Shown piece by piece: positions 34,039-35,687 of a DNA stretch of 57,869 bases (within the stretch, counting starts at the first letter, position 1; every line of letters starts with the position of its first letter). The translations under genes and the position numbers were made by a program. Source of the DNA: Bacteroidota bacterium (lineage in GTDB: Bacteria; Bacteroidota; Bacteroidia; Flavobacteriales; JADGDT01); the NCBI GenBank assembly GCA_039714315.1, contig JBDLJM010000006.1:1-57869 (forward strand), written 5' to 3'. The notes below the pieces were generated by a model that saw nothing but the letters and a program-made list of their open reading frames with translations, searched no databases and was not told where the DNA came from.

Positions 34039-34074
34039 ATGTCTAATATTTTTTTATCACAAAAATTACAAACT

Positions 34075-35637
34075 ATGAGGAATTTTAAACGACTCGCAAC
34101 ATCCCTAGTTGCAATAGCTTTAATAGTTGCCTTCTCCTCGTGTGAGAAGCAACCCGTAGCTAAAGATGGTAATTATGAGGTTTCAATTGCCATAAACAAC
34201 CTGACTCCAAGCCTAAAAAAAGGTACTGTTGATGGAGAAAACACGGGTAACTTACCTGAATGTTCAGATGCTGAGGCAGATTATGCAATAGTTGGGTTAA
34301 TAGATCCTAATGGGAAACCTGTAGCATCAATGCACCTTCCTATATTAGGTGTAGATGACGGAACACAAACAGTAGTTGTAAAAACTAAGACGCTTGGTGA
34401 ATACACAATTGATCTGTTTGAAGTGTATGATGCAGAAGACAACCTTATTTGGGCTGCGCCAAAACCTGGTTCAGAATATTATGACTGGGTTACTAATAAA
34501 ATAGGTGACACATTCACTGTAGAAGCATTTAAAAAGTTAAAAGTTGACATAGATGTGCTATGCTGGCAACCATACAGTTACAAGGAATTCGGATACTTTT
34601 GGTTCGACATTGATAAAACCAGAGTAAAAACCTTGTGTTTTTTCGGTGATGTTTGTACAAAATTTTACGAAGACTTTCATAATTTTGACGGATCTCCGTA
34701 TGTAGGTCAAGAGTATATGGGTTATGATTTCCCGGCAATATTTTATGTATTGATTAAAGATTCTGAGGGAGAAGTAATCAATAATATGGAAGTCAACTCA
34801 AATGAAGAATGGTATGGTAACGAACCATTATGTATAGAATTTCCGGATATTGAAGGACAGGATGACGAATATACTTTTGAAATTTATTTAGCTTATCCTG
34901 ACGGTACATGGCCATTAGTATATACTTCTGATCCATTTATGGCTGAAGATGACCTAGAAGATATCACAGGTGATGACGGAATATTTGATTTCGTAGTAGG
35001 TAATTGTTCTTGGGAAGGAAATGATGCAAATATAGAACTAGATCCATATCTATTGTTACCTGATCACGGTACAATAGAAATTCTTTACGGTAACTTCAAA
35101 AGTCCAAACTTCTTTGACTATTTCGAAATTGGATTACTTGAAGGCTTTGACAATCCTTTATATCCTGAAGAATTAAAAGGAGAATCAACATATGGATATT
35201 GTGGTGATATTTGGAATTTTATTACTACAGATATATATGATGTAGATATTTATCCTACTCATACCGAAGAAGCTCTTGCCAATATACCTGCTGAGTATGC
35301 CGCATATCCATGGGGTTCATTAAACTGGATGGCAAACTTTGCTCCAGTTGAAGAAACTACTTCAGAGATAGCCAGACACTATCAGGCTGCAATTTGGATG
35401 GTTATCCATGGTATGGGTAATGATGTAATGAATAGAATAGAAGGATTAGCCGGTATACAAATTAAGCAAGCAGACATTGATTTCGCCAATGAGGCTCTTA
35501 ACAATCACAGTGATTACAAAGTAAGAACAGGCGACTATGTTGTTTTATTATTTGATCCTGTAGAAACAGAAGAAAACGTTATTGATGGATCAAGAGACAA
35601 TATGATTCAATTAGTATTAACCAGAGTTGATCCTTAA
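34075..35637 (+). CDS. Modular lipoprotein 3 with C-terminal thioester-like domain
   Basis: I start at ATG 34075, by alignment with lipoprotein 1 (MRNxKRLATSLVAIAL) and by the promoter. This gives 520 residues. The lipobox is AFSSC (Cys23), followed by domain A (about 34-183) and one domain B (about 184-312, ending FDFVVGNC). A third region (about 325-505) is absent from the paralogs. There STYGYCGDIWNFI (Cys376, codon 35200-35202), SLNWMANF and HYQAAIWMVIHG (Gln437, codon 35383-35385) follow the Cys...W..Gln-Ala-x-IW pattern of surface thioester (TED) domains, which form a Cys-Gln bond that reacts with host or matrix targets. The match was made by eye. Confidence 0.75.
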   Translation: MRNFKRLATSLVAIALIVAFSSCEKQPVAKDGNYEVSIAINNLTPSLKKGTVDGENTGNLPECSDAEADYAIVGLIDPNGKPVASMHLPILGVDDGTQTVVVKTKTLGEYTIDLFEVYDAEDNLIWAAPKPGSEYYDWVTNKIGDTFTVEAFKKLKVDIDVLCWQPYSYKEFGYFWFDIDKTRVKTLCFFGDVCTKFYEDFHNFDGSPYVGQEYMGYDFPAIFYVLIKDSEGEVINNMEVNSNEEWYGNEPLCIEFPDIEGQDDEYTFEIYLAYPDGTWPLVYTSDPFMAEDDLEDITGDDGIFDFVVGNCSWEGNDANIELDPYLLLPDHGTIEILYGNFKSPNFFDYFEIGLLEGFDNPLYPEELKGESTYGYCGDIWNFITTDIYDVDIYPTHTEEALANIPAEYAAYPWGSLNWMANFAPVEETTSEIARHYQAAIWMVIHGMGNDVMNRIEGLAGIQIKQADIDFANEALNNHSDYKVRTGDYVVLLFDPVETEENVIDGSRDNMIQLVLTRVDP

Positions 35638-35656
35638 AATATATCACACTATAATT

Positions 35657-35687
35657 AAAAAGGCTACCGTAAAGGTGGCCTTTTTTT
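35657..35687. terminator. Terminator after lipoprotein 3
   Basis: A 12-bp stem AAAAAGGCTACC/GGTGGCCTTTTT (one G-T pair) with loop GTAAA, ending in seven T on the plus strand and five A at the other end. It could also serve the small minus-strand gene. Confidence 0.75.

Follow-up and report, generated by a model that had tools for sequence, protein, structure and literature searches.

The window (the whole 57,869-nt stretch of DNA that we analysed) carries a lipoprotein gene, P0001, whose features and neighbours are collected in Table 1. An ATG at 34039 opens a longer alternative reading frame; the numbering of the 520 residues used here is taken from the ATG at 34075. The N-terminus reads as a lipobox, AFSSC, with Cys23 as the predicted lipid anchor, and it is followed by two domains and, at the C-terminus, by a domain resembling surface thioester domains (TEDs), with the protein ending in LTRVDP. 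The layout of Gram-positive TIE proteins, with an N-terminal TED and a C-terminal LPXTG, is not found in P0001. The original prediction, made from this DNA alone, had placed a TED-like module at 35049–35634 and fused it to two other unknown domains. A C-terminal domain is indeed present, but its start had to be moved: 35049 falls on the third position of codon 325 and codon 326 begins at 35050, and we set the limits at 35029–35634 because the match to paralogue P0003 ends at 35028 and the relatives align from residue 319. The second domain has no family name, as had been claimed, whereas the first is probably DUF4458-like, judging from its relatives, whose PF14660 scores are 22.7 (cut-off 22.4) and 21.4 bits.

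Table 1. Features of the TED-like lipoprotein gene P0001 and its surroundings (window coordinates)
Feature	Coordinates	Strand	Basis or remark
Paralogous lipoprotein without TED, 353 aa	31032..32093	+	Shares first domains
Paralogous lipoprotein without TED, 476 aa	32431..33861	+	Shares first domains
Lipoprotein gene P0001, 520 aa, with TED-like module	34075..35637	+	Open reading frame; full-length relatives in three other genomes
Predicted lipoprotein signal peptide and lipobox AFSS-C-EKQPV, lipidated Cys23	34075..34143	+	Read from sequence
First domain, approximately residues 33–180, DUF4458-like (approximate limits)	34171..34614	+	PF14660 scores of relatives; common to paralogues
Second domain, approximately residues 181–318, no family name (approximate limits)	34615..35028	+	Common to paralogues
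TED-like domain, residues 319–520	35029..35634	+	Relatives, profiles, conserved motifs
Cys376, predicted thioester cysteine, YCGD ([YFL]CΦζ-like motif)	35200..35202	+	Invariant in 11/11 and 19/19
Gln437, helical QxxxW motif, predicted structural, not bond partner	35383..35385	+	Invariant in 11/11 and 19/19; PMC4450167
Gln512 (MIQLVLTRVDP), predicted thioester glutamine in last strand	35608..35610	+	Alignment; tail context in relatives
Intrinsic-terminator-like hairpin directly 3′ of the gene	35657..35685	+	12 pairs, then a T run

Both paralogous lipoproteins lie directly upstream of P0001. The same gene order, topoisomerase III followed by three lipoproteins of which the last bears the TED, is kept at L011, from an Ichthyobacteriaceae bacterium that bears what reads as the same protein as the one in G001; this suggests that the genus of the window is part of that family. 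At L009, a similar first part (weak N-terminal match, E 0.0036) is joined to a C-terminal Laminin_G_3 module. Other relatives of this two-domain arm (L006, L024, L034, L039 and L040) end in differing C-terminal modules, mostly without a Pfam name; L006, for instance, has a poly-Asp tail and L024 a DxSxS-like stretch.

Within the TED-like domain, the three sequence landmarks of the original prediction are all present, and its residue numbers are correct: GYCGDIW with Cys376, SLNWMANF at residues 415–422, and HYQAAIWMVIHG with Gln437. Cys376 is the sole cysteine of the domain, the others in P0001 being residues 23, 63, 163, 188, 194, 253 and 311. Compared with the known cysteine motif, [YFL]C followed by a hydrophobic and a hydrophilic residue, the Tyr, Cys and Asp of Y-C-G-D fit and the Gly departs; among 11 core sequences of the family the residue after the Cys is Gly in three and V, A or L in eight. 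The TQxxΦW motif is recognisable as Y-Q-A-A-I-W, with Tyr in place of Thr. None of the 11 core sequences departs from Cys376, Gln437 or Trp441, even at identities as low as 15–20%, and judged by this invariance the Cys/Gln/Trp pattern is more than chance. P0001 and its three full-length relatives all keep C376, D378, W413, N417, W418, N421, Q437, W441, P495 and Q512. An alignment of 19 sequences, a chosen set of the 11 core sequences and 8 of 15 proteins from the phylum search described below, has the Cys and both the Gln and Trp of QxxxW in 19/19 and a Gln in the last strand in 18/19, the exception being the G002 protein, whose Gln exists but slips from the column. The other seven were left out of this set: the secreted proteins L093–L098, and also L100, whose matched stretch begins after the Cys.

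The relatives came from searches of increasing scope. Among 99 related genomes, tblastn found matches in three: the window's own, G001 (41% identity), and one in which the match was spurious. The whole lipoprotein has a relative in each of the three genomes of the genus that we examined. A Lutibacter MAG (L012) came from profile searches, a lipoprotein of another family of the order (L027) from the order-wide search, and two secreted proteins, L041 and L042, from the class-wide search; in this last search 17 genomes matched, one of them the window's own, and we read loci from three of the other 16 genomes (L041, L042 and L043). Searching plasmids by tblastn yielded four Rhodobacterales proteins, L063–L066; a further plasmid tblastn with the G002 protein and the G002 domain gave no credible match. 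A search across the phylum with an 11-sequence profile gave matches at E 0.01 or better in 26 of 296 genomes, and of 16 loci examined all except L099 had matching open reading frames, giving 15 distinct proteins. Among the secreted TED-like proteins L093–L098, a PEP-CTERM motif is present in both that were scanned (L093 and L095). The window's genome also holds a second TED-like lipoprotein (G000:C151, L103:1447-2823, minus strand) with the motifs GWCLAPNI, DMQEAFW and LQQPIMSF. Scanning genome contigs and viral contigs with the window's domain as a single sequence gave no match, and neither did scans of the viral contigs with other queries. The match at L003 (E 0.008, internal stop) was dropped as unrelated, as were those at L010, L031, L043 and L060 after examination.

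On three of the Rhodobacterales plasmid loci (L064, L065 and L066) the TED-like gene lies one small open reading frame from an exosortase E gene (xrtE); at the fourth, L063, there is no xrtE in the fetched stretch.

The original prediction of a TED on a lipoprotein proposed a profile search against PF08341, and here the window's own domain gave no support: neither the protein nor the domain had a TED match in Pfam or NCBIfam scans (PF08341 cut-off 22 bits), and a PF08341 scan of the window's genome found none. The best Pfam match of the domain, to TFIIA_gamma_C, is a short fragment (E = 0.011) that we take as chance. Scanning 395 Bacteroidia genomes with PF08341 also gave no match, which is no proof of absence because the control genomes gave none either. 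The prediction is instead supported through the relatives. The same-genus protein of G002 scores 21.0 bits against PF08341 as a whole protein (E 4.6e-4, cut-off 22) and 24.5 bits in a genome scan. Six of the 11 collected TED-like domains match PF08341 (best 7.7e-5), and every other family is matched by at most one. Combined in a profile with two of its close relatives, the window's domain matches the seven most distant relatives with a probability of 97.6 and a score of 82.1, compared with at most 18.2 in 50 column shuffles. Furthermore, the 11-sequence profile retrieves L101, a protein from another genome of the phylum that carries a PF08341 TED (38.6 bits, cut-off 22) together with DUF11 and pAdhesive_15; the hhalign score between profile and L101 is 58.5, compared with a maximum of 17.1 over 50 shuffles. 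With a profile restricted to the window's domain and the two close relatives, the score against L101 is 32.3 (probability 47). When 10 of the phylum-search proteins were scanned with Pfam, TED appeared in three, with only L101 over the cut-off. Finally, against 177,635 PDB sequences the 11-sequence profile ranks the TED of SfbI (5a0l) first at E = 0.07, with the Cys and QxxxW aligned. Homology to PF08341 is therefore seen through profiles, in the six matching domains, the retrieval of L101 and the rank of 5a0l, and both this homology and the conserved key positions are supported by sequence.

The AlphaFold2 models, built from three sequences, were poor: the window's domain reached a pLDDT of 38.9, the Lutibacter domain one of 42.7. 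Both low-pLDDT models run strand, helices, strand, with the Gln of QxxxW in a helix and the tail Gln in the last strand. With the low-confidence Lutibacter model, eight of the ten best Foldseek matches were TED chains (E 0.44–2.1, TM about 0.3); with the window's own low-confidence model there was no TED among the 50 matches listed. The models and the Foldseek result support the TED reading only weakly, and hhalign against class II TEDs from Bacillota found no match (probability 0.11 and 0.31). We infer the fold and the bond, because both structure predictions were poor and the class II comparison gave no match. An unrelated fold, in which the arrangement of Cys, QxxxW and Gln had arisen by convergence or chance, would explain why the window's domain has neither a direct Pfam match, a confident model nor a class II match. 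We regard it as improbable, since the profile retrieves a bona fide PF08341 domain, TED is the only family matched by more than one of the collected domains, and 5a0l ranks first in the PDB.

If the domain is a TED, the identity of the bond-forming glutamine matters. The original prediction paired Cys376 with Gln437. In characterised TEDs, the helical Gln of TQxxΦW is not the thioester partner and its mutation leaves the bond intact (PMC4450167); the partner sits in a weak ΦQζΦΦ motif of a β-strand (PMC4450167 and PMC6194298). Gln437 is the helix glutamine by this comparison, and the predicted thioester is therefore probably Cys376–Gln512 and not Cys376–Gln437. Around Gln512 the sequence I-Q-L-V-L follows the strand motif, though Leu replaces the hydrophilic residue after the Gln. 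A Gln in this tail context is present in all 11 core sequences, a result equalled by one of 20,000 shuffles, a figure that is not a strict probability because we settled on the pattern once we had seen the sequences, which are moreover related to one another. The tail Gln of all 11 falls in one column under E-INS-i, though not under L-INS-i. A C-terminal Gln, a short stretch and then Asp-Pro were found in 7/7 Bacillota TEDs that we fetched and 4/4 proteins of the window's group, the Bacillota assignments other than that of pLS20 being by pattern only. For the pLS20 TIE, the published model pairs Gln256 with Cys68 (PMC8092201), and its sequence has a Gln at the position of the published partner with Asp-Pro ten residues further on. 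The Cys376–Gln437 pairing can draw on the slightly cleaner alignment of Gln437 (19/19, compared with 18/19 for Gln512). Nevertheless, the equivalent Gln of known TEDs is central, helical and dispensable for the bond (PMC4450167 and PMC6194298), while Gln512 fits the known partner by position and context, and we consider the earlier pairing very improbable. Mutational work aimed at Gln437 would probably be misleading.

Whether the bond is used for attachment is a separate question. The TED fold could be kept with no thioester, or with one that only stiffens the fold; the Gly after Cys376, which departs from the motif, would suit this, as would the secreted relatives L093, L096 and L098, in which the strand Gln is not clearly visible in the stretches examined, so that the bond may not be universal in the wider set. 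The 11 core sequences, however, retain the Cys, both residues of QxxxW and the strand Gln at identities down to 15–20%, which argues against a dead bond because such a bond would be expected to lose them. A domain with no role in attachment therefore seems unlikely to us.

The residues after Cys23 are E-K-Q-P-V-A, with Lys at +3 and no acidic residue at +4 to +7. The surface export signal of Capnocytophaga lipoproteins is K-(D/E)2 or Q-A-(D/E)2, and it varies, some surface lipoproteins departing from the consensus (PMC5080379). Of 15 distinct SusD proteins in G000 and G001, 10 by our reading carry Lys at +3, most with an acidic residue soon after. P0001 thus carries the Lys of the signal only, and because of this its surface exposure is no more than plausible. 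The TED could instead form its thioester facing the periplasm, where its targets would be periplasmic amines, for instance those on peptidoglycan peptides or on neighbouring lipoproteins; the lack of an acid at +4 to +7 beside a Lys shared with many SusD proteins of the genus, and the two paralogous lipoproteins immediately upstream, are compatible with this. We hold a periplasmic location to be unlikely, given the acidic starts of related TED lipoproteins (C-SEDDG in Lutibacter, C-EKDVED in G002), the variability of the export signal with its known departures (PMC5080379), and the surface display of the TEDs described in PMC4450167.

Our main reading, with a probability of about 0.7, is that the C-terminal 202 residues form a divergent class I-like TED with a Cys376–Gln512 bond, serving as the head of an irreversible adhesin or tether lipoprotein. 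In the proposed mechanism, Cys376 and Gln512 would form the internal thioester with loss of ammonia, while Gln437 and Trp441 of the central helix would hold the cysteine backbone. The TED-like head would end a two-domain lipoprotein arm anchored by Cys23, and the reactive bond would therefore point away from the membrane. The thioester would then be opened by a nucleophile, in the likeliest case a lysine on a bound partner protein or some other primary amine, leaving Gln512 covalently linked to the target; known TEDs react in this manner with a lysine of fibrinogen (PMC4450167). Covalent capture, like surface exposure and the kind of target, is inferred here.

If this is true, a chemistry of covalent attachment that has until now been described for adhesins of Gram-positive bacteria would also be available to Gram-negative cells, placed on lipoproteins in a mirror-image layout with the reactive end farthest from the membrane. 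The analysis gives a testable residue pair, Cys376–Gln512, and a short list of proteins. A literature search found no paper on Gram-negative or Bacteroidota TEDs, though this does not prove that nothing has been published, and the claim to novelty is limited because Pfam's own model already recognises a TED in the phylum (L101).

Among known systems, the window's domain resembles the class I TEDs (PF08341; 5A0L of SfbI and 5A0G of CpTIE), with which it shares the YC cysteine, the central QxxIW and the C-terminal Gln followed by hydrophobic residues. The spacing from Cys to strand Gln, 136, and the lack of an obvious β-sandwich insert are also alike, as is the apparent order of strand, helices and strand in the low-confidence models. 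It differs in belonging to a Gram-negative protein with an N-terminal lipid anchor, a C-terminal TED and no LPXTG, in the Gly after the Cys, and in going undetected by Pfam when scanned alone. Class II TEDs, such as that of the TIE of plasmid pLS20 (PF20610 TED_2 with PF08341), are alike in the Cys motif, the C-terminal Gln and the Asp-Pro 8–11 residues after it. In contrast, the Cys-to-Gln spacing of pLS20 is 188, compared with 136 here, and its TIE is a sortase-type Gram-positive protein, unlike the window's lipoprotein; with the shorter spacing and no class II profile match, the domain does not group with class II. Complement C3 and α2-macroglobulin also use a reactive Cys–Gln thioester for covalent attachment, which sits in a compact GCGEQ motif, whereas this motif is absent from the window's domain. 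A further comparison is with the Gram-negative TED-like set found here, comprising lipoproteins and PEP-CTERM proteins of the Bacteroidota phylum, Rhodobacterales plasmid proteins and L101, which has the same Cys and QxxxW and mostly the strand Gln. Several members are lipoproteins, as is the window's; most are unlike it in having an N-terminal TED, SdrD repeats or a PEP-CTERM anchor. It is an even call whether these proteins represent a broad and mostly unrecognised Gram-negative set of TEDs on lipid- or sorting-signal-anchored proteins of Bacteroidota and Rhodobacterales, which in Flavobacteriales would act as one among several interchangeable heads on a common two-domain lipoprotein arm.
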